NCBI GenBank assembly: GCA_003167555.1
Contig: PMSN01000011.1
Span: 62,001 to 126,000 of the forward strand
DNA: 64,000 nucleotides
Direction: 5' to 3'
Source of the DNA: Spartobacteria bacterium
GTDB taxonomy: Bacteria; Verrucomicrobiota; Verrucomicrobiia; Chthoniobacterales; UBA10450
Position 1 is the first letter of the stretch, and every line of letters begins with the position of its first letter. The notes beneath the pieces were generated by a model. That model made no database searches. It saw only the letters and a program-made list of their open reading frames with translations, and was not told where the DNA came from. This document shows, piece after piece, positions 2,891-51,179 of the stretch. The translations under genes and the position numbers were made by a program.

Positions 2891-4756
2891 ATGAAACAGC
2901 TGCTTCCCCCGGGCAGGGCTATCCTGGGTTTTCTGCCCATCTTCCTCCTTCTCTCTCCGGTCTCTTTCGCGGCCGACCACAACGATCCAAATGCGATCAA
3001 CTCCATCTTTTCAGACATCGACGCCAACGCAGCGGATCTTTACGACCTGTATGGATTTCCGAGCGACGATGTGGTGGGCGGAGAGAAAGTGGTGGTCGCT
3101 CTGACGTTCGCTTCTGTCCCCGCAACCGGCGCATTCGACCCCGACCTGCTTTATCGGATTCTAATTGCGCCTAATCCGAGGATTGCGCCGCCTCTCAAGG
3201 ACGATGCCAGCCTGGAAGGAATCTTGAAATACTTCGCGGCGATCAAGGACAAATACCTCCGGCTCAAACCGTCGGAAGTCCGGGTAACCGTTGGGAAGAA
3301 TAACCAGGCGAAGGTCGAGCTGCTGCGTTTTCCCGGCGGAAACTTTTCGGCCTCGGTCGCGACGAATAAGAGCGAGACCATCGAGGCGGGGGGAAGTACG
3401 ATTAAGGTGTTCATCGGTGGCCGGGACGACGCTTTCTTTAACGATCTGCCGGGCTTCTTCCGCTCCATCAACTACGCGCCCCAGTTCTATAACATTCCAC
3501 TATCCATGGCGAACGCGCGGGAGCTTCCCATCCCGAAGACCCTCCTCGAGCTGGAAGGCAACGACCTTTTCAATTTCGATCCGGCCAACCCGGAACTGGG
3601 ATACAGCCTGAAGAAGGATCTCCCTCCCGGGCCGTGGACGTGGAAGGGAAACAAGTTCAAGAAGGATGAGAAAGGCAATTACCGCTTCGTTTACAGCGGC
3701 AAAGATAATCGGGCGGGAAAAAACGTTAATGCGATCATTCTCGAAATCCCGCTGGCGTTCCTGACGAAAACTCCCGAGGCGGACCGAATCGTGAACGCAT
3801 GGGGTGAAAGCTGGGTGCTCAAGGCTTCGGGCAAGATCGCAACGATTCCGAATGAGCGCACCGATGGGAGCGGGATTTTCGGAAAGCATCCCTGGGCGTC
3901 GACCAGTGCCGCGGTTGCGCTGGGTTTGTTGCTTCTTGTCCTGGGGATCAGAGCTGCCGCGAAACATGCCCGGCGCAGCCCGGTGGAAGAGAAAGCAGTG
4001 CGCTGGTGGGCGAGACCCAAGCCGTTGATCATCCTCGGAATTCTTGTCCTTGCCGCAGGCGCCTCCCTGGGAGTGGTGGCGAAGCTTCGGGCCCAAGAGC
4101 TGGCCGACCTGGTGCCGGCCGCTTGGGACGAAGAACTCAAACAATACAAGCTCGTCGATACGGATGGCCAGCCGTTTGCGGATGCGGCTTTGAATGAGCG
4201 CGAGGACAACAAACAGGTAGGCGCAAATAATTTCTGGCTGGGGCCTTCGCTGGTCACGCGGCTGGCTCATCTCGGTTGGGGCTTCGGGCCGTCCATTTCC
4301 GCGCTAGGTCTCCGCACTTCCTTCGACCATGATAATTCGCCCATCTCCGTGCACAAGACCTATGACGCCGCTCATATCCTGGAGGCTTTCCGCCGGGTAA
4401 AGAAGACCCTGTTTCAGGAACTGAACATGCCCGATGACAAGTGGAACAAGAAGCGCTTGCCCATTCCGCTGAAACGGTCCTTCGAGATTTTTGTCCCGAA
4501 CGTTTGTCCCATCGACATGGACACCACCGGCACCTGGCCTTACGGGCGTCGACTGGAAGATCAGGTGGCCACCAGATTCCTCTCCCTTTTTCTCGACATG
4601 AGCCCGGATGCCAACGGCCGGAAATACAATATCGAGACCTTGAGCGATCAAGCTTTATGGGACGCGGCGCCGATCGAACCGAAGATACCGCCTAATCCAT
4701 TGAAGAACGACAAACCTTTCCTCGACCAATTCCCCTACCTCGCCGATCCCTGGTGA
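2891..4756 (+). CDS. DUF4331-like secreted/membrane protein
   Basis: This 621-aa protein starts with a clear signal peptide (MKQLLPPGRAILGFLPIFLL ending in SFAA). I therefore prefer the ATG at 2891 to the in-frame ATG at 2864, which would put charged residues before it. The mature N-terminus, DHNDPNAINSIFSDIDANAA then DLYDLYGFP, fits the DUF4331 family, whose proteins begin with a similar DHxD...TDLYxF stretch. Two hydrophobic segments near residues 337-356 and 380-400 are followed by a second domain, in which YGRRLEDQVATRFLSLFL resembles the end of DUF4331 domains. DUF4331 has no established function. A second member lies at 17036, after the cytochrome and GMC-patatin genes, which suggests both belong to one system. 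Confidence 0.7.
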   Translation: MKQLLPPGRAILGFLPIFLLLSPVSFAADHNDPNAINSIFSDIDANAADLYDLYGFPSDDVVGGEKVVVALTFASVPATGAFDPDLLYRILIAPNPRIAPPLKDDASLEGILKYFAAIKDKYLRLKPSEVRVTVGKNNQAKVELLRFPGGNFSASVATNKSETIEAGGSTIKVFIGGRDDAFFNDLPGFFRSINYAPQFYNIPLSMANARELPIPKTLLELEGNDLFNFDPANPELGYSLKKDLPPGPWTWKGNKFKKDEKGNYRFVYSGKDNRAGKNVNAIILEIPLAFLTKTPEADRIVNAWGESWVLKASGKIATIPNERTDGSGIFGKHPWASTSAAVALGLLLLVLGIRAAAKHARRSPVEEKAVRWWARPKPLIILGILVLAAGASLGVVAKLRAQELADLVPAAWDEELKQYKLVDTDGQPFADAALNEREDNKQVGANNFWLGPSLVTRLAHLGWGFGPSISALGLRTSFDHDNSPISVHKTYDAAHILEAFRRVKKTLFQELNMPDDKWNKKRLPIPLKRSFEIFVPNVCPIDMDTTGTWPYGRRLEDQVATRFLSLFLDMSPDANGRKYNIETLSDQALWDAAPIEPKIPPNPLKNDKPFLDQFPYLADPW

Positions 4757-4806
4757 TCTGTGACCAGGAGGGCAGCACACCTGTTAATTCCACCTCAAGG
4801 ACTCTT

Positions 4807-5154
4807 ATGAAACAGCTCGCCAAAGTTCTCCTCCTCATCGGATTGCTTCTCGCCCTTCTCTTCGGATGCCTTCGCGCCACAGGCAGCACGGCCTGGCCGG
4901 TGCCATGGCTCCTGGTTGGAGGGGTGGGAATCCTCTGCGGGATATTTGAGTTTCCCCCGAGGGAAGTACCGATAGCCTTTCTGAGCTTGATCGGCCTCGT
5001 GGTAGCCTTGAGTGCCATCCTCCTTCAGGATTTCAACCCAGGGTGGTTGAATGCCATTGTCTTCTATGTGCGAGTATTTTTTGCGCACTTCCTTCTCTCC
5101 TTTGCTTTCCTTCAACTTTTGAGGCCCGGCCGGAAGTATTCCGAAACTCTCTGA
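4807..5154 (+). CDS. Small integral membrane protein, unknown
   Basis: This 115-aa protein is almost all hydrophobic, with about four membrane helices (LAKVLLLIGLLLALLFGCL, then PWLLVGGVGILCGIFEF, a helix around SLIGLVVALSAILL, and FFAHFLLSFAFLQLL). The ATG at 4807 is chosen over the upstream frame opening because AAGGA lies eight bases before it and the first helix begins at once. It follows the DUF4331-like gene by 50 bp and precedes the TPR gene by 25 bp, so the three are probably one operon. I do not recognise the family. Confidence 0.6.
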   Translation: MKQLAKVLLLIGLLLALLFGCLRATGSTAWPVPWLLVGGVGILCGIFEFPPREVPIAFLSLIGLVVALSAILLQDFNPGWLNAIVFYVRVFFAHFLLSFAFLQLLRPGRKYSETL

Positions 5155-5179
5155 CTGGTTCCGCGTTCCACGGGGGCAA

Positions 5180-6412
5180 ATGCGAAGAGTTCTCGTCCTT
5201 CTTCCACTCATCGTTACGCTGGCGGTGGTGCGTGCGGGAACGCAGGCCGCGCGCACACGAGAGACTCTTGAGTCGCTGGAGTCGCGCGTAAAGGCAGTTC
5301 CCGACGACTTCATTGCCTGGAACAAGATCGCCGACGCGCACCTGCGTTTGCTCAGCAGCACAGGGCTACTCTTGCATCTCACCATCGCGTCAGAAGCAGT
5401 GGAGAAATCGCTCAAGCTCGCTAACCCCGAGTTTAACCGCGGAGGGCTCGCCATGCGAACGCGGATAGAACTGGGGTCGCATCGCTTCGCCGAGGCCCGC
5501 CAGAGTGCGGAACAATTGCGCCGGCTTATGCAGGACGAGACCTATGCCCTGCAACTCCTGGGCGACGCACTTTTCAATCTGGGCGACTACGCGGACGCAG
5601 AGCGAGCCTGGAGCCAAGTGCCGCCAGCCGGGAATGAGCTTGCGATAGAGCCACGACTTTCGCAGCTCGATTGGGTCCAGGGAAACGCCCCGCGGGCGCG
5701 GCAACACCTGGAAAACGCCCTGCAATCCGCGGAGAAAAATGCCCCGGAATTTCCCGAGGTCGCGGCCTGGTGCCACGTCCAGATCGGAGAGCTGGCTTTC
5801 AAGTTGGGCGATTGGGAAGCGGCGGAGTCGCATTACAAGGATGCCCTTGTGAAGCAACCGGATTACTATGCGGGCCTTGACCACCTGGCTGAGTTAAAAG
5901 GCGCTGAAGGTAAGATCGACGAAGCCATTGCGCTTTACACTCACCTGATCGAGCGAGTCGAAAGGCCCGAGTTCTGGCAAGCGCTGGGTGATCTCTACCT
6001 CTTTGCTGGAAAGGCCGATGAAGCGAGGCCGTGGCATGATCGCGCGCTCGCCGGCTACCTTGCCTCGGTCAAGCGCGGCGAAATTCTTTACTTGCATCAC
6101 CTGGCCGGTTTTTATTCTGACTCGATCAATCAACCGGAAGAGGCGATCCCGTTGGCGCGGCGTGATCTCACGTTGCGTCACGGCATTCAAGCATACGACG
6201 CGCTGGCATGGGCGCTCTACAAGGCCGGGAAAAAAGAGGAAGCGCTGGAGCTGACCGCAAAGGCGCTCGCGACCGGAGCGCCGGAAGCACACATTCTTTA
6301 CCACGCCGGGATGATTCGCATGGGATGCGGAGACGTCCCCGGAGGCAGAGCTACCTTGCAACGGGCGCTCGAAGCGAATCCACGTTATAACACCTTTCAC
6401 GTCCACCGTTAA
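5180..6412 (+). CDS. Secreted tetratricopeptide-repeat protein
   Basis: This 410-aa protein has an N-terminal signal sequence (RRVLVLLPLIVTLAVVRAGT) followed by repeated helix pairs of TPR type. Typical repeats read LGDALFNLGDYADAERAWSQ, then LAFKLGDWEAAESHYKDAL, LAELKGAEGKIDEAIALYTH and LAWALYKAGKKEEALELTAK. About eight to nine repeats span the protein. TPR solenoids act as protein-binding scaffolds. Its TAA stop overlaps the ATG of the HupE/UreJ-like gene (TAATG), a sign of translational coupling, so the two products probably act together in the envelope. A GGGGG stretch before the start could serve as ribosome binding site. Confidence 0.85.
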   Translation: MRRVLVLLPLIVTLAVVRAGTQAARTRETLESLESRVKAVPDDFIAWNKIADAHLRLLSSTGLLLHLTIASEAVEKSLKLANPEFNRGGLAMRTRIELGSHRFAEARQSAEQLRRLMQDETYALQLLGDALFNLGDYADAERAWSQVPPAGNELAIEPRLSQLDWVQGNAPRARQHLENALQSAEKNAPEFPEVAAWCHVQIGELAFKLGDWEAAESHYKDALVKQPDYYAGLDHLAELKGAEGKIDEAIALYTHLIERVERPEFWQALGDLYLFAGKADEARPWHDRALAGYLASVKRGEILYLHHLAGFYSDSINQPEEAIPLARRDLTLRHGIQAYDALAWALYKAGKKEEALELTAKALATGAPEAHILYHAGMIRMGCGDVPGGRATLQRALEANPRYNTFHVHR

Positions 6413-7563
6413 TGATCCGCCGGCTGCTCTGGTTATTCTGTGCACTAACCCTGGGCGCATTGGAGACCCAGGCCCATCCAGTGGCGCAGGGGGCAATGGA
6501 TATTATTATCCGGGCCGACCAAATCGAAGTAAGAGCTCGGGTTTCCAGTGAAGAGGCTTTTGTCGCCGAAGCTTTTGACAGGAATGCCCAGACTGATGCG
6601 ACGCTGGAACGGGTGTGGCAACGACACGCCCAATATTTGCTGGCCCATTTTCAGCTCAGCGCGGACGGCCTTTCGCTTACGGGACGGCTCGCTGAGATCA
6701 CGCCGCCGGAGAACACGAAAACGCAAGACCTTATCGGCTACGTTTTCAAGTTCGATCTGCCACCCGAACGGCGGCCGCCCGCCCAGATTCGCCTTACCGA
6801 AGATGTCCTGAACGAGTTCGTTTTTGCGCCCGGCAACCGCTGGGAAGCGAGCTACATCGTGCGGATCTCCGGGCCTGATCACGTCATCCAGGAGGGATTG
6901 CTCCTTACTTCGCGGCAACCACTTTCGTTTAGCCTGGAAGCGGCTGGGGCTAACAACAAATCCGGCCCTCGCCTCGATCAACGGGCCATGGCAATTGCGT
7001 TTTTGCGTCACGGCATCGCCCATATTCTGAGCGGTTACGATCATTTGCTCTTCGTCGCCGGGCTTGTGCTCGCGGTCGCCACGATGTGGGACCTGCTCAA
7101 GGTGGTCACTGCATTTACCCTCGCGCACACGATCACCCTCACGCTCGCGGTTTTCGACGTGGTGCGGCTTTCCAACCGGATCGTGGAACCGATGATAGCG
7201 GCCAGCATCGTTTTCGTTGCGGCGCAAAATCTCTTTGCTCCCGCGCATAGCCGCGGTCTGACAAGACTTGGCGTCGCCTTCGGCTTCGGGCTTTTTCACG
7301 GTCTTGGATTTGCCGGCGGCTTGCTCCAGGCCATGGAGGGAATGCAGGGAGTGGCTGTCGCGACGGCGATCGCTGCCTTCAGCGTGGGAGTCGAGGTCGG
7401 ACACCAAGTCGTGGCGCTGCCACTTTTTACCGCCATGAAACTAACGCGTGCCTATAGCCAGCGAACGACCCATCCGGGACGAATGCCGCGCTGGTTGTCA
7501 CGCACTGCCTCGAGCGCGATCTGCGTCGCGGGAGTAATCTATCTTATCGCGGCGTTGCGCTAA
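6412..7563 (+). CDS. HupE/UreJ_2 family membrane protein
   Basis: This 383-aa protein has a signal peptide, an extracytoplasmic domain of about 170 residues, then a six-helix membrane domain. The first helix holds the family hallmark HGIAHILSGYDHLLFVAGL, and the next carries FTLAHTITLTLAVFDV. Later helices carry FGFGLFHGLGFAGGLL and a conserved EVGHQ. The histidine-rich helices suggest metal (nickel or cobalt) handling, as proposed for HupE and UreJ, but no hydrogenase or urease gene is in the window. Start and stop overlap with the TPR gene imply a joint role. The 3' end overlaps the convergent catalase-like gene by four bases. Confidence 0.85.
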   Translation: MIRRLLWLFCALTLGALETQAHPVAQGAMDIIIRADQIEVRARVSSEEAFVAEAFDRNAQTDATLERVWQRHAQYLLAHFQLSADGLSLTGRLAEITPPENTKTQDLIGYVFKFDLPPERRPPAQIRLTEDVLNEFVFAPGNRWEASYIVRISGPDHVIQEGLLLTSRQPLSFSLEAAGANNKSGPRLDQRAMAIAFLRHGIAHILSGYDHLLFVAGLVLAVATMWDLLKVVTAFTLAHTITLTLAVFDVVRLSNRIVEPMIAASIVFVAAQNLFAPAHSRGLTRLGVAFGFGLFHGLGFAGGLLQAMEGMQGVAVATAIAAFSVGVEVGHQVVALPLFTAMKLTRAYSQRTTHPGRMPRWLSRTASSAICVAGVIYLIAALR

Positions 7564-12023: not shown

Positions 12024-15000
12024 ATGAGAGCTGATGCCTCCCGCGAAGAAGTGGAATTCGATTACATCGTGGTCGGTTCGGGCGCGGGCGGCGGACCGCT
12101 CGCGGCCCGTCTCGCCCAGGGAGGCAAACGTGTTCTTGTTATCGAAGCGGGCTCGAATCCAGCCGACCTTCCGCCCACGGCCGGTCCTCGTGAAGTAAGC
12201 GCGGCTCCTTCCTTCAACGGTCTCGCGTCCGAACATCCGGACCTTAGCTGGGAGTTCTTTGTAAAACACTACACCAATCCGCCGCCTAACCCTAACGGTT
12301 CGCCCTCTGATCCCAAAGAGAATATTGACCCGGACGACGAGGAGCGGACGGGCATTTTTTATCCGCGCGCGGCGGCCCTGGGAGGTTGCACGATTCACAA
12401 CGCGATGATCACCATCTGCGGACCTGATTCCGACTGGGATGACCTGGCTGACTTTGTCCGTGATGACTCCTGGCGCGCGGAAACGATGCGGCCTTATTTT
12501 GAACGCCTCGAGCGCAACCAATACTTCAAGCAATCCAAGCCACCGCGCACCCGCTGGGGCCGGATCTGGGCTAACATTTGCTGGCTCTTTTGGCGCGAGC
12601 CCGACTATACCAACGGCCGCCATGGTTATGAAGGGTGGCTGCGAACAAGTGTCACCGATCTAAGTATCGGCTTGAAGGATATTCAGTTGATAAAAATGCT
12701 CAAGGCTGCCCTTTGGCAGGCCAATCAGGCGGGTATTGATCGTTTTGCTACTTTCGTTCGCCACTTTCTGCGCGGCGGGGTAAGACGCACAAGGGAAACT
12801 CTCGATCCGAACCACGCCCGGACCCAGGCTGAAACCCCCGAGGGTCTCGCGCTCATTCCGTTAGCCGTCTGTGGCGAGAATGGGCTGCCCGACGACGATG
12901 GCAATCCATCGTTAAGCAGGCGAGGACATCGCTCGAGTCCGCGGGAGTTTCTCCTCGAGATCCAGGCACAATACCCGGAAAGACTTGTGATCGAGACTAA
13001 GTGCTTTGTAACTGAGATCCTCTTTGAAGAAGATCCACCGCTTCGGGCTATTGGAGTCAGGTTTCTGCGAGGCGAGAAGCTTTACCACGCCCATCCTACC
13101 TATAACTCTCCTCCCACCGGGACCGAGGAGTACCGCGTGAGAAAAGGTGGTGAGGTTATCCTCTGCGGCGGTTCCTTCAATACACCTCAACTGCTCATGC
13201 TCTCCGGCATCGGCGATCGAGAACATCTCGAGGAGCAGGGAATTGAGTGCCGGGTCCATTCTCCGGGAGTGGGCCGCAACCTGCATGATCGCTACGAGGT
13301 CACAGTAGTGAGCGAGATGGAAGAGAACTTTGAGCTCCTGGCCGGCGCCAAATTCCAACTGCCAATCGGCAGCGCGCAGCCAGACCCGTTTTTGGAACAG
13401 TGGCGCCAGCAAGGCGACGGACTCTATTCCAGCAATGGTTCGGTTGTTGGCATTCTGAAGCGTTCGCGGCCTGATCTGGCCCAGCCGGATTTGTTTATCT
13501 TCGGACTCCCATTGTCCTTCAAGGGCTATGAGCTCGGTTACTCGAAGGACCCGAAGCATAACTTTTTCACCTGGGCGATCCTGAAGGCGCGCACTCGCAA
13601 TCGCGATGGAACCGTAAGGTTGCGCAGCGATAATCCGCTCGTTACTCCAGACATTAACTTTCACTACTTTGAAGAAGAGTCTGGCCAGGTGGATAACGAT
13701 CAGGCTGATGATCTTCTCGCGATTGTGGATGGGGTGAAATTCGTGCGAAGCATTGCGAAGCACGCCCATCTCGTCGTCAAGCGCGAAGCTCACCCAGCCG
13801 TCATTGCTCCCGAGGACGACGACCTGGCGATCAAGGATTGGATCCGCCGCGAATCCTGGGGACACCATGCCTGCGGCACGTGCCGCATGGGACCGCCGGA
13901 AGACGAGAACGCCGTCCTGGATAGTAACTTTCGAGTGCTGGGCGAAGCGCCGAAGGAGGACGAAAAGCGTTCCAACCAGCCGGAAGGGGACGAAAAGCGC
14001 CCCTTCATTCCGGGACTAAGAGTCGTGGATGCCTCTATCTTCCCGAAAATCCCGGGCTACTTTATTGTGACCAATGTCTATATGGCGAGCGAGAAGGCCG
14101 CCGATGTGATTTTGGAGGAGGCGCGTTTCTCGTCGGTCCTCACGGATTCCGAGACCTATCCCGATGAATTTCGCAAACACGAGGCCAAAGCGATCCGTAC
14201 ACGCAGGTCAGAAGTAGACAAAGACCCGTCGAACCCGGACGCGGTCTCAATAGATCCGCTGTCCGGCGATCGATGGTCCGAGGATGTCACCGGGCTGGCG
14301 ATTTCAGGCGGGGGGATTCGCAGCGCGACGTTTAATCTTGGTCTCCTCCAAGCCCTGGCCAGAGTCCATTGCCTTCGCCGGATTGATTTTCTTTCCACGG
14401 TTTCCGGCGGCAGTTACATAGGTTCCTTCCTCGGTCGATTTTTTGATCGTCTGCGCTCGGAGCCCTTTGCCACGGGACAGCGTAACTCCGTTCATCCGGC
14501 GGCTGATCGCGTCGAACACGAACTGGTCGCGCCCGATTCGCTCGAGGTAAGATGGCTGCGCAAGAATGGCAATTACATAGCGCCGTCCAGCAAGGGGGAC
14601 GTGCAATTCGATCTCGCCGTTCTCGTTCGCAATCTTCTCAGTGCGCATTTCGTCGTCGGCACGCTGATCTTCGCGCTCTTCGGTCTTGCTAATGCCGTTC
14701 GTTACGGGCTCTTCGATAAGATCCTGGCGGTGCAAGGGCTCGTGCTGGCTAAGTCGGAGCTACCCATCGGACACCTGATCGAGGCGGGGCTTGGCGTTTT
14801 TTGGAGTCCCTGGTTTGTTCTGTGTGAGTTAATCCTGCTTTTTGCAGTGCTGCCCAGGATCATCGGTTACTGGATGGCATCCGAGGATATTCACGAGCGC
14901 TACAAATGGCCTCCTCTCCTTCTTGTCTTCATCTTTCTGGCCGCGCTGTTCTATCTCGGTCTCTACAACGGAACTCACTGGGAACCACTCTTTCTCGCCT

Positions 15001-38689: not shown

Positions 38690-39235
38690 AGCAACAAAGG
38701 AGAAGAATTATGCCATTTCCCGCGAGGCTTTCCGAATTTGCCGCTCTATGCTCATCTTTTCCTGCTGGAGAATGGGCGGGTGTTTTTCGATGGCGGTCAC
38801 ATGGATGACGTCTTGTCGCTGGAACCGTGCGTCATTGATTTGACACATGAGCCGCTCCAGACCACGCCCGTTTTTGGCATTAACGCGCGTGACATGCGCA
38901 ACCAATCCACGAGCGTGATTTTGCCTCCCGCACAGGGTCAACGCATCATGCTGATGGGCGGCGGGCCGGATGGAAAGCAGAACAAAACGGACGCGGTGGA
39001 TAACGTGGACATCGTGGATTTCAAAGCCGCTCAACCGCGCTTCGCCGCCGCAGCGCCGCTAAACCTGCCGCGTCTGCACTTAAACGCAGTGCTCCTGCTC
39101 GACCGCACCGTTTTCGTGACGGGCGGTTCGTTGAAACAGGAAGACGTGCCGCTGGCACGGCTGCAATCGGAAATCTATGATCCGGTGAAAGATGAGTGGA
39201 CGCTCACGGCAAGGTGCACCGTGCCGCAGCTGTAG
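38690..39235 (+). pseudogene. Galactose-oxidase/kelch-like fragment
   Basis: The plus strand reads FPRGFPNLPLYAHLFLLENG, RVFFDGGHMDD, then SVILPPAQGQRIMLMGGGPD and FVTGGSLKQEDVPLARLQSE, ending IYDPVKDEWTLTA. These are blades of a beta propeller like those in radical-copper oxidases of the galactose oxidase type. There is no start codon before FPRG in this frame, and the stop cuts off the catalytic C-terminal part. It is an internal fragment of a protein that is normally several hundred residues longer. Confidence 0.7.
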
Positions 39236-39465: not shown

Positions 39466-40150
39466 GATTAGAGGATCTCCGCCATTTCACATCCTAGCAA
39501 TGTTATTCATCCTGTTTCGGTCCTCGGGACATCGATAGAAAACCTCCGATTACTCCAAGCGCCCAAATACGAAGCGGACTATTGCTGATGATGATGACTA
39601 CCGGGATGAACTGGGCCGAACATCGTGAGCGCGGCAGCAGAACTCGGCCTTCGAGTCGTCGGCTACGCAACGGGAGGGGATCGATGCGGTACCGTGTTCT
39701 CAAGCTTCGGAGGCCCTAGGATCAAGTTCATTGTATCCCCTGATTGTACCCGCTAGCTTGAAAAAGCAGCAAAATACAGCTAATCATAGCTAAAGCGTAG
39801 TTATCTTAAGTGACTGATTACGTGCTTATAGCTAACAAAAGCCAACGATGGCAAACACCCATTTCTTGATTACGAATCAGCTGCTCTATCACTTGAGCTA
39901 CGCTGGCGAAAATGCGCGTCAAAGTAGCGCATCAGGATCACCCGAACAAGCGCGCTCACGTTACAGCCGCGAACCCGACTTAATTAAAAGCAGTTCAGTT
40001 GTCTCCAGTTTTGGATGACGGTGATGAGATGAACTGATTGGGGATGGCGAGCGGAAAGGAGGGAGCAAAAAATCTACGCTGCCCATGTGGAAAAGAAATG
40101 CACAAACACCGCCAATAAGCGATTGATGTTTCACAAAGGCTTCTCGCGGA
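39466..40150. other. Intergenic stretch holding a tRNA remnant
   Basis: This 685-bp stretch is comparatively AT-rich. Apart from the tRNA-Thr fragment at 39867-39907 I see no gene. It separates the decayed left side from the housekeeping genes on the right. Confidence 0.45.
39867..39907 (-). pseudogene. 5' fragment of tRNA-Thr (CGT)
   Basis: The minus strand reads GCCAGCGTAGCTCAAGTGAT, then AGAGCAGCTGATTCGTAATC: acceptor 5' strand, D arm and anticodon arm with CGT anticodon, as in bacterial tRNA-Thr. The sequence departs within the 3' side of the anticodon stem, and no T arm or acceptor 3' strand follows. The gene is cut in half. tRNA genes are common integration targets, so this may mark an old island boundary. 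Confidence 0.75.
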
Positions 40151-41704
40151 ATGAATGCACGACTGCTATCGAATGAAACCGAACGACTCCGCGAAGTCCG
40201 CCGTTATGCTGTTCTCGACACTCCGCACGAAGAAGCATTCGACCGAATCACTCGAATGGCCGCGCGTCTCCTCAACGTGCCGATAGCCACCGTCACGCTG
40301 ATTGACGAGACGCGGCAATGGTTTAAATCGGCTGTTGGTTTAGAGAATCGCGAGACCAGCCGCGATGTTTCGTTTTGCGCTCACGCCATCCTTGATGATG
40401 CCATGATGACGGTGCCCGACGCGCAACGCGATCCACGTTTCAGCGACAACGTGCTCGTAACGGGTGAGCCACATATTCGTGCCTACGCTGGAGTGCCGCT
40501 CAAAAGCTCCAATGGTTTCAATCTCGGAACCTTGTGTGCCATTGATACCGTCGCGCGGACGTTCTCAGCGGATGAACAGAAGATATTGCAGGATTTGGCC
40601 GCAATGGTTACAGACGAACTCGAATTGCGTTTGGCGCTTCGCGAGCGGGCTCAACAAGCCGCCGCCATTAATAACCTGCACTCCGGCGTATTGGCGACCG
40701 ATCCCAATCAACCAGATAATCCGATCGTTTTTTGTAACCCGGCATTTAGCGCAATGACGGGTTACGAATTCAACGAGATTGTTGGAAGAAATTGCCGGTT
40801 CCTGCAAGGACCCGACACAGACAAGGCTGTGGTGAAGGAAATCCGCGAGGCCATCGTAGAGCGCCGAACGTCGCAATCCGTCCTTCTAAACTACCGCAAA
40901 GACCGGACTCGATTCTGGAACGAATTGACCATTACTCCGGTCTTCGATGACCAAGGTCAGCTAATCAGCTTAGTCGGTTTGCAGACCGACGTTACAGAGC
41001 GACTCAATCTCGAGTCTCTCCGTGAGAATCTTAGTCATATGATCATCCACGATCTGCGCGGACCTCTCACGACGATAATGGGTTTCCTCGACGTGCTTAA
41101 GCAGCGATTGACCAACAAGCTCGGCAAAAGCGAGAGCCGCTTTTTCGAAATGGCACAAGGAAGCGCGTCAGCCCTCAACGAAATGATTACGTCACTGCTT
41201 GATGTTAATCGGCTAGAGGCCGGTGAGATGCCACTCAATCTTGAAGAGTGCGATCTTTATGAGCTGGCAACGAATTCGACCGTTGCCGTGCGTGCACTTG
41301 TTGGAAAACAAAAATTGACGGTGACGGAACCGAGTTTGCCGGTCGTGGCTCTCTGCGACCGGACGGTGATTGGTCGAGTCATTACAAACCTGGTCAGCAA
41401 TGCCCTAAAGTTCACTCCGGGCGACGGGGAGGTGCGTGTAGTTGTCGAGAAAGCAGAATCGACGAGCCGCGTTTCCGTCATTGATACGGGCTTCGGGATT
41501 CCGGCCGAGTACCACGCGAGGATTTTCGAAAAGTTCGGCCAAGTAAAAGGTGGGAGTCATGTCCACTCAACAGGACTCGGATTGACTTTTTGCAAACTCG
41601 CTGTCGAGGCGCACGGCGGCACGATTGGAGTACAAAGTGAGCCAGACAAAGGAAGCACGTTTTCGTTTACGTTGCCTCCCACTGCAGTTGAGAGCGCTCA
41701 CTGA
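40151..41704 (+). CDS. GAF-LOV sensor histidine kinase (blue-light candidate)
   Basis: This 517-aa protein has a GAF domain (residues 20-160), then a PAS domain of the LOV type with the flavin-adduct motif GRNCRFLQG at 212-220, placing the photoactive cysteine at 215. NPAFSAMTGY before it and YRKDRTRFWNELTITPV after it are also LOV-typical. A phosphoacceptor helix with H300 (HMIIHDLRGPLTTIMGFLDV) and an HATPase domain follow (N box NLVSNALKFTPG; DTGFGIP; STGLGLTFCK). There is no membrane segment, so it acts in the cytoplasm. It should sense blue light through FMN and phosphorylate a response regulator; no partner lies next to it on the same strand. Confidence 0.92.
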   Translation: MNARLLSNETERLREVRRYAVLDTPHEEAFDRITRMAARLLNVPIATVTLIDETRQWFKSAVGLENRETSRDVSFCAHAILDDAMMTVPDAQRDPRFSDNVLVTGEPHIRAYAGVPLKSSNGFNLGTLCAIDTVARTFSADEQKILQDLAAMVTDELELRLALRERAQQAAAINNLHSGVLATDPNQPDNPIVFCNPAFSAMTGYEFNEIVGRNCRFLQGPDTDKAVVKEIREAIVERRTSQSVLLNYRKDRTRFWNELTITPVFDDQGQLISLVGLQTDVTERLNLESLRENLSHMIIHDLRGPLTTIMGFLDVLKQRLTNKLGKSESRFFEMAQGSASALNEMITSLLDVNRLEAGEMPLNLEECDLYELATNSTVAVRALVGKQKLTVTEPSLPVVALCDRTVIGRVITNLVSNALKFTPGDGEVRVVVEKAESTSRVSVIDTGFGIPAEYHARIFEKFGQVKGGSHVHSTGLGLTFCKLAVEAHGGTIGVQSEPDKGSTFSFTLPPTAVESAH

Positions 41705-41803
41705 GATTGCCGATAACGCAAAAGTGTTACAGTAAAGTGTTACAATCGAGTTTTCGGCTGTTCGACGAAAATGCATAAATCACTGGCGTGCAAAGGAGAA
41801 AGG

Positions 41804-41878
<75 letters not shown>

Positions 41879-42023
41879 GCGAAAACCAGTGACAAGGGAC
41901 AAGTGACGAGTGACGAGTGAAGAGTCAAGCGAGGAGTCGCTGGTTGCGATAACGCAACCGTGACGGAATCTGGAGGGACAGGCGGAAGCATGCCCCTTCG
42001 AAAATGCGGGGCGAGCGCGAAAT

Positions 42024-42575
42024 TTACGCCGCGAGCTTGGCGGCGTCTTTGTGGCCGAGAATGCGGACGGTCTGTTGCAGCTGCTCCACCCGGAGCGGTT
42101 TCTTCAGCACGGTAATCGGACCTTTCGAGAGAATGCGGTCGAGCATCTCGCTATCCGGGTAACCGGTGATGACGACGATCGGCAATTCCGGGTCGACCTC
42201 TTTCGCGGTGTCGTAGACATCGTCGGCCGGGCCATCGGGCAATTTCAAATCGAGAAATAGAAGATCGAATTTCTGTTTCTCGAGCGCCGCGATCGCTTCC
42301 TTCACGGTGCCGACCACGACGCGGCTGAATCCGATTTTCTTGAGGAAAACCTTAAACAAACTCTGGAGGCTCTCGTCGTCATCGACCACGAGCACGGTCG
42401 GTTGCCCCGACTTGTCTTCCTTGAGAATATCCTTGTCGAGCGACGCCTTTTTGATCCGCCAACGGCCGCCGATTTGGATGGCCGGCAACTGCCCGCGCTG
42501 CACAAGATAGTAAACGGTCGGCAACGGAATGCGGAGGTATTTGGCCGTTTCCTTGACCGTCAAGAGGTTGTGCAT
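42024..42575 (-). CDS. Excisionase-type HTH fused to a response-regulator receiver domain
   Basis: This 183-aa protein joins an N-terminal MerR/excisionase-type helix-turn-helix (LLTVKETAKYLRIPLPTVYY, then GGRWRIKKASLDKDI, residues 4-50) to a receiver domain (about 60-175). The receiver has the acidic cluster at 65-67, phosphoacceptor D109 (LLFLDLKLPDG) and the lysine in TVLKKPL. Usually the DNA-binding domain follows the receiver, so the order is reversed. It probably binds DNA and is controlled by phosphorylation. The LOV kinase 320 bp away on the other strand is a possible partner, which is inference. Confidence 0.88.
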   Translation of the reverse strand: MHNLLTVKETAKYLRIPLPTVYYLVQRGQLPAIQIGGRWRIKKASLDKDILKEDKSGQPTVLVVDDDESLQSLFKVFLKKIGFSRVVVGTVKEAIAALEKQKFDLLFLDLKLPDGPADDVYDTAKEVDPELPIVVITGYPDSEMLDRILSKGPITVLKKPLRVEQLQQTVRILGHKDAAKLAA

Positions 42576-42806
42576 TGGAGAAAAACAGCAACTTGCGCGT
42601 CAATCGGCAAGCCTTTTCGCTAAGCCCAAGCATTATAGCATTTATAGTCGGTGTCAATCCTTACTTCTGGGGCAGTGTCTCCGCCGATCCGCGGCGCGCC
42701 CGCGATCGGGGCGATTTTGGTCTTGCGCTGAGGCGCGCACCGGCACGCCGGCAGCTCTTTTCGTGACTGGACAAGGCCGGGGTCGGGGTTGACTATTCCC
42801 ACCTTC

Positions 42807-51036: not shown

Positions 51037-51090
51037 AGCTCGTCAGGCCAAAGAAGAACGGGAAACGTCCAACGTCCAATGAAGACGCGG

Positions 51091-51179
51091 CGGAAGGGGT
51101 GGGATTCGAACCCACGGTGAGTTTAACCCCACGCTCGATTTCGAGTCGAGTGCCTTAAACCGGACTCAGCCACCCTTCC
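51091..51179 (-). tRNA. tRNA-Ser (CGA)
   Basis: The minus strand folds with acceptor GGAAGGG/CCCTTCC, anticodon arm with CGA, a long variable arm typical of serine tRNAs (CGTGGGGTTAAACTCACC region) and T arm GTGGGTTCGAATCCCAC. Discriminator base is G. Confidence 0.93.

Follow-up and report, generated by a model that had tools for sequence, protein, structure and literature searches.

Integration of a mobile element into a tRNA gene nearly always keeps the tRNA on its own promoter. The locus described here, where the 5' half of a tRNA-Thr gene lies in accessory DNA, raises the question of what such a half gene records: the attachment site of a mobile element, a decayed gene, or a chance truncation. 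We analysed a window, i.e. the whole stretch of 64,000 nucleotides at G000:C23:62001-126000, from a Spartobacteria genome (G000; 4.2 Mb in 29 contigs); positions given without a contig refer to this window. Very probably, the half gene is the left attachment site (attL) of a mobile element inserted in a tRNA-Thr gene, and this scar is now located within an island in a tRNA-Val gene.

The half gene and its conserved tail

The features of the locus are, from left to right:

39726..39866, minus strand: conserved tail past the tRNA break, very probably the left arm of the integrated element; matches G003, G017 and G036
39731..39751, minus strand: direct repeats GGGTACAAT / GGATACAAT, 13 bp apart; probable arm-type integrase binding sites
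39907..39867, minus strand: 5' part of tRNA-Thr, anticodon CGT, position 39 at 39869; very probably the displaced half and thus the left attachment junction
39908..39931, minus strand: 5' flank of the half, resembling (by sequence similarity) the native promoter region of tRNA-Thr(TGT) loci
39959..40045, minus strand: 3'-end scrap of a gene found ahead of tRNA-Thr(TGT) in relatives; match to L032
40151..41704, plus strand: GAF-PAS histidine kinase (Pfam), cargo of the island, located between scar and tRNA-Val arm
41719..41803, minus strand: arm of the tRNA-Val island with TGTAACACTTT direct repeats; match in G006
41804..41878, minus strand: intact tRNA-Val(GAC), border between island and core, with an exact second copy of its 3' 45 nt at G000:C18:14810-14854

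On the minus strand, 39907..39867 reads GCCAGCG-TA-GCTC..GAGC-A-GCTGA-TTCGTAA-TCA, i.e. the 7 nt of the 5' acceptor strand, the D arm and the anticodon CGT, followed by TCA of the 3' anticodon stem. The sequence-only reading had recognised acceptor strand, D arm and anticodon correctly. Its two intact tRNA genes to the right were found as well: Val (41804-41878) and Ser (51089-51179) are the only tRNAs detected in the window by ARAGORN and by the Rfam model at its cut-off, and ARAGORN calls none at 39907..39867. The further statement that everything 3' of the anticodon stem is gone holds roughly, but a defined, conserved tail follows the break, and 39907..39840 (the half and the start of the tail) reaches 27.1 bits with the Rfam tRNA model, just below the cut-off of 29.

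The half with its two flanks, a query of 450 nt, was compared with 58 genomes including G000 and matched in 39 of them, mostly through the tRNA part alone. Outside G000, four matches extend through the tail of ~140 nt, namely those in G003:C4 (9021-9196, E 2.4e-23, 75%), G017:C14 (E 2.5e-21, 73%), G036:C73 (E 2.5e-16, 70%) and G022:C47 (E 2.4e-6). Shorter tail matches occur in G011 and G028; additional halves that have a tail were observed in G001, in G016 and at G003:C4:334 kb. All halves with tails break directly after GTAAT, and the identical breakpoint with a related tail is present at no fewer than nine further loci in eight genomes. Because the same break and the same ~140-nt tail recur in relatives, we do not regard the half as a product of decay. 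The recurring breakpoint, which the complete elements described below share, likewise refutes an origin without site-specific recombination, in which a tRNA-Thr gene was duplicated by chance or truncated at random; the divergence of half and flank (about 80% to G000:C8) and the lack of both integrase and intact partner in G000 would suit such an event, to which we assign next to no probability.

The better-preserved tails share the motifs TTTTGC, a CACTTACG-like sequence and TTAGCT, and terminate in two direct repeats. Direct repeats with a 13-bp period are usual in both arms of complete elements, about 65 nt from the rebuilt tRNA in one arm and about 115-135 nt past the break in the other, and the GGGTACAAT/GGATACAAT pair of the window sits at offset 115. 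In seven of ten two-ended elements the repeats of one arm match those of the other (15-18 of 18 positions), and in three there is no matching pair; among mismatched arm pairs, 15 of 18 positions are reached by 8/90. These repeats probably bind the integrase.

It is improbable, in our view, that the gene is whole but degenerate, the tail being its own decayed 3' half with a shortened T arm and an acceptor strand, CGTTGGC, that pairs with GCCAGCG. This 7-bp pairing and the 27.1 bits would be in keeping with such a gene, and the Rfam model was also applied to eight loci with a homologous half: six score 21.2-35.9 bits across half and tail, two of them (L046 and L049) above the cut-off, and at L012 the match is to the intact tRNA of that locus only. 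At some left ends the tRNA 3' half is even complete, element-like and provided with a T arm (L040 2645-2717, L048 11971-12043, L051 6610-6682), so that an intact tRNA-Thr is found at both ends of these elements. Against this stand the tRNA-Thr(CGT) half of G028 (L025), which gives no tRNA match at all, the conserved repeat-bearing arm, which runs ~100 nt past the tRNA-like part, and elements with the same break in tRNA-Arg and tRNA-Met genes, in the tails of which no sequence complementary to the acceptor of the element's own tRNA was seen (by eye; six elements). A full-length degenerate tRNA was set aside on the latter two grounds, and the near-tRNA scores are read as an acceptor-like GCYGGC within the tails of tRNA-Thr elements.

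Complete elements, empty sites and their integrases

Upstream of the half, the 5' flank shows 80% similarity over 65 nt to G000:C8:22871-22934, and the gene scrap beyond it matches L032 2894-2981 (77% over 88 nt, E 9e-13; the same gene is found at L009). The tRNA-Thr(TGT) of G000 is located at C8:22894(+). An intact tRNA-Thr(CGT), for which the sequence-only reading had advised a search, exists at C23:167014-167089(+), 65 kb to the right of the half and on the opposite strand, but it was rejected as the partner of the half; its acceptor and D loop differ, and it is therefore not the remainder of the half gene. As the half differs from both the CGT and the TGT copy, neither is its in-place parent. 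The right-end motif ATTTTCCCTCGTAAAT recurs exactly, over 16 nt, at G000:C24:31426-31441 (L161, minus strand), with no tRNA adjoining.

Relatives possess elements with both ends. In G001, an intact tRNA-Thr (12389-12462) stands 9.5 kb beyond the half (L046, 2873); 14.5 kb separate the two in G016, where the integrase adjoins the intact copy; and the elements of G003 and G017 measure 62 and 109 kb. The tRNA-Thr genes of G000 itself provide the empty sites for comparison. The left flank of the G001 element matches the tRNA-Thr(TGT) locus on G000:C8 up to tRNA position 40 and its right flank matches past the intact tRNA, the loci of G003, G017 and G036 follow G000:C8 as far as position 39/40 and lose similarity beyond it, and a tRNA-Thr(CGT) half of G003 matches the intact locus C23:167014. 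Entry thus displaces the native 5' half together with its promoter, and a 5' half borne by the element rebuilds the gene. The pairing of the tRNA-Thr(CGT) scar on G003 C4 with a right end on G003 C11 was rejected, as their repeats differ.

Homologous scars, complete two-ended elements and empty sites together support the earlier suggestion of an attachment-site scar with the element on its left. The missing 3' half had been expected at the other end of the island; with the native 5' half displaced and the gene rebuilt at the far end, that end is expected to hold an intact tRNA, and the tRNA-Thr elements of relatives carry a rebuilt, intact gene there instead. As these comparisons show, elements of one tyrosine-integrase clade recombine with tRNA genes at the anticodon loop. 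The crossover leaves the native 5' half (39 nt) and its promoter at one end of the element and, at the other, joins the host 3' half to the 5' half supplied by the element, giving an intact tRNA beside a divergent tyrosine-integrase gene. The rebuilt tRNA would be transcribed from a promoter of the element.

Several tRNA-Thr elements show additional arrangements. Three carry an extra, divergent and intact tRNA-Thr(TGT) just inside the left arm, beside the first backbone gene (L031 9904-9977, L033 1449-1523, L049 1994-2065). A tandem array of two elements (L049, L040 and L041; G003:C4:334-416 kb) has the order half tRNA, 62 kb, intact tRNA-Thr, 18.5 kb, intact tRNA-Thr. At L052 (G027:C222), two intact tRNA-Thr(CGT) genes (430-504 and 2040-2113) lie in opposite orientation 1.5 kb apart, with right-end-like sequence upstream of both.

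The integrase of L039, searched against the 58 genomes at a threshold of 1e-40, yielded 26 matches in 16 genomes and none in G000. ARAGORN places a tRNA beside 23 of the 26 integrases, and in all 23 cases the two are divergent, the 5' end of the tRNA pointing toward the integrase start; the targets are Thr (11), Met (5), Arg (3), Ser (2), Phe (1) and Ala (1). A second set of 36 loci from a genome-contig collection, which overlaps partly with the 58 genomes, showed a divergent tRNA 79-297 nt away at 28 loci, a reversed one at L147 and no tRNA at seven, i.e. 28 of 29 loci with a tRNA are divergent. Four of these seven have less than 130 nt of upstream DNA, and at L128 there is a tRNA-Thr with two unread bases. 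By record title, the hosts of the clade are mostly Verrucomicrobiota (Chthoniobacterales/Spartobacteria and others), with a few Acidobacteria or Proteobacteria MAGs.

Displacement of 5' halves also occurs at targets other than Thr. Ten non-Thr right ends were followed up to the contig end or for about 60 kb; five of them have a displaced 5' half of 39-40 nt, two at tRNA-Arg (matching 40/40 and 39/39) and three at tRNA-Met (39/39, 39/39 and 37/39), with the break after position 39 or 40, and within these distances no half was found for the other five. A further Arg element, L139, has a displaced half matching 39/39. Our literature search returned no paper on this integrase clade, which is weak evidence that none exists, the results returned not naming the taxon.

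The scar within a tRNA-Val island

The half gene had been placed at the border between accessory and core regions; the true border lies 1.9 kb further right, at the 3' end of tRNA-Val (41804). When window 39910-42600 was compared within the genus (G000 and seven other genomes), all seven relatives matched right of 41793, at the tRNA-Val 3' end, and only G006 extended further left, to 41719; arm and tRNA together are 80% identical over 163 nt to G006 L071 2239-2399. No relative matches 39910-41718, and the histidine kinase has no match at the equivalent place in the seven genomes. Nor does any of the seven have the scar at this place: most are without the whole left region, and the tRNA-Val island of G006 showed no scar.

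In G001, G002, G003, G004, G005 and G007, core DNA homologous to C18 from 15 kb onward sits to the left of tRNA-Val, with extra DNA intervening in G007 and some others. In G000, the same core DNA is preceded instead by the 45 nt at C18:14810-14854 that duplicate the tRNA-Val 3' end exactly. The left 41.8 kb of the window are therefore inside a tRNA-Val island, which would extend from 41803 leftward through C23:1 and into C18:1-14809, at least 118 kb in all, if C23 and C18 are joined as synteny suggests. This order, C23 and then C18, is supported by a tRNA-Thr element of G031, parts of which match C23:51.1-41.7 kb and then C18:3.7-7.1 kb. An intact tRNA and a 3' fragment thus bracket DNA that is absent from relatives, given the probable join, and C18 provides an integrase near the fragment (12796-13818) and a MobF/TrwC relaxase (3959-6805), as in integrative elements (ICE/IME) of the tRNA 3' type. 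The stretches of C23 that were read hold no tandem copy of the tRNA-Val fragment.

Some smaller observations concern this island and its counterparts. G006 has a related island in the same tRNA-Val, and G007 a tRNA-Val-like fragment 9.3 kb from its own tRNA-Val. The ORF at 38738-39235 (165 aa) is probably a gene fragment, with a partial match to the radical copper oxidase GlxA (NCBIfam, E 7e-21, far below cut-off). ARAGORN calls a 71-nt tRNA-Arg(GCG) within the island (L075 17626-17696, G000:C23) that is absent from the Rfam tRNA search and is probably no real tRNA.

The scar lies 1.9 kb inside the tRNA-Val island, half and arm together occupying C23:101.9-101.7 kb. A backbone on G000 C23 is common to five tRNA-Thr elements (G003, G017, G022, G025 and G031), in all of which its edge falls at C23:51126-51131; the edge is at 51128 in the tRNA-Val island of G006. 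The MobF relaxase is also common to the tRNA-Val island of G000 and the tRNA-Thr elements of relatives. In G006 the backbone comes almost directly after the tRNA-Val arm, whereas in G000 52.6 kb lie between arm and backbone edge, holding the histidine kinase, the gene scrap, the half tRNA with its arm, and a second tRNA-Thr arm. This second arm (C23:55.81-55.65 kb, E 1.8e-30 to L030) is located 46 kb to the left of the scar on the same strand, retains about 20 nt of tRNA and has no integrase beside it.

C23 has no tRNA-Thr left of the scar, no rebuilt tRNA-Thr end was found in G000, and the island stretches that were read contain distant integrases only. With no integrase of the clade in the genome, the scar belongs to a remnant and not to a complete island, and with neither this integrase nor a rebuilt end, the element itself is not demonstrated in G000. 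The scar would be inert because both have been lost. We infer that the two arms are the remains of a tandem pair of tRNA-Thr elements, and that recombination between islands with a common backbone carried this pair, together with a scrap of chromosomal flank, into the tRNA-Val island.

For this last step, and for this step alone, a nested insertion competes: the tRNA-Val island might have captured a spare tRNA-Thr gene, which was later entered in place by a tRNA-Thr element. The scar does retain a promoter region and an upstream gene scrap within the tRNA-Val island, and such elements can carry a tRNA-Thr of their own (as at L031, L033 and L049). The second arm and the common backbone, however, suggest that a whole tRNA-Thr array joined the island, and not a single cargo gene, and we consider the nested insertion unlikely, with perhaps a modest chance of being correct. 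The attachment-scar reading is the same under either course of events.

Relation to known systems

Islands with a 5' tRNA fragment are known but uncommon: the available text on Islander counts 159 of them, compared with 3760 islands that have a 3' fragment (Hudson, Lau and Williams 2014, PMC4383910), and the available text of a review (PMC8371274) describes 5'-half targets as unique to pTN3-like integrases among archaea and as seldom seen in bacteria. Our locus resembles the 5'-fragment islands of Islander, as far as the available text describes them, in its tRNA target, in the crossover in the anticodon loop (after position 39-41, as in relatives) and in the fragment at one border (39867-39907), which in such islands is accompanied by a rebuilt gene at the other end. 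It differs in that the window holds the fragment end only. An intact cognate tRNA in the same orientation at the other border is found in the complete relatives and not in G000, and G000 has no tyrosine integrase of the clade inside. The complete relatives are further distinguished from the Islander set described in that text by belonging to one integrase clade, mostly of Verrucomicrobiota, that enters Thr, Met, Arg, Ser, Phe, Ala and Lys tRNAs from the 5' side.

The archaeal pTN3-like integrases likewise target the tRNA 5' half and leave a rebuilt gene behind element DNA, according to the available text of the review (PMC8371274). The same text has their integrase genes split on integration, whereas here the gene stays intact and is separated from the tRNA by 79-297 nt, outside the attachment site; in none of the relatives is the attachment site within the integrase gene, as it is in these suicidal integrases. 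The common kind of ICEs and IMEs, integrated in the tRNA 3' half, is represented by the tRNA-Val island of G000 with its intact tRNA, 45-nt 3' fragment, integrase near the fragment and MobF relaxase. The tRNA-Thr scar is of the opposite kind, with the 5' half displaced, despite the common backbone.

A broader picture, which we regard as about evenly balanced between right and wrong, is that of a tyrosine-integrase clade, dominated by Verrucomicrobiota, whose specialty is the displacement of 5' halves at many tRNA genes (Thr, Met, Arg, Phe, Ser, Lys and Ala), whereby host tRNAs would be put behind element DNA. The same conjugative backbone would also occur with a conventional module for the tRNA-Val 3' half, and the scar in our window would record the recombination of both island kinds.

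A 5' part supplied by the element is called rare for bacteria in the available text of the review (PMC8371274). Since one clade swaps 5' parts repeatedly at several kinds of tRNA, the change of targets by a single integrase lineage can be tested by comparison, and the fate of an essential tRNA with swapped upstream DNA is likewise open to a comparative test. The 39-nt halves and the pairs of repeats with a 13-bp period offer a means to find and delimit such islands even after loss of the integrase, as in G000.
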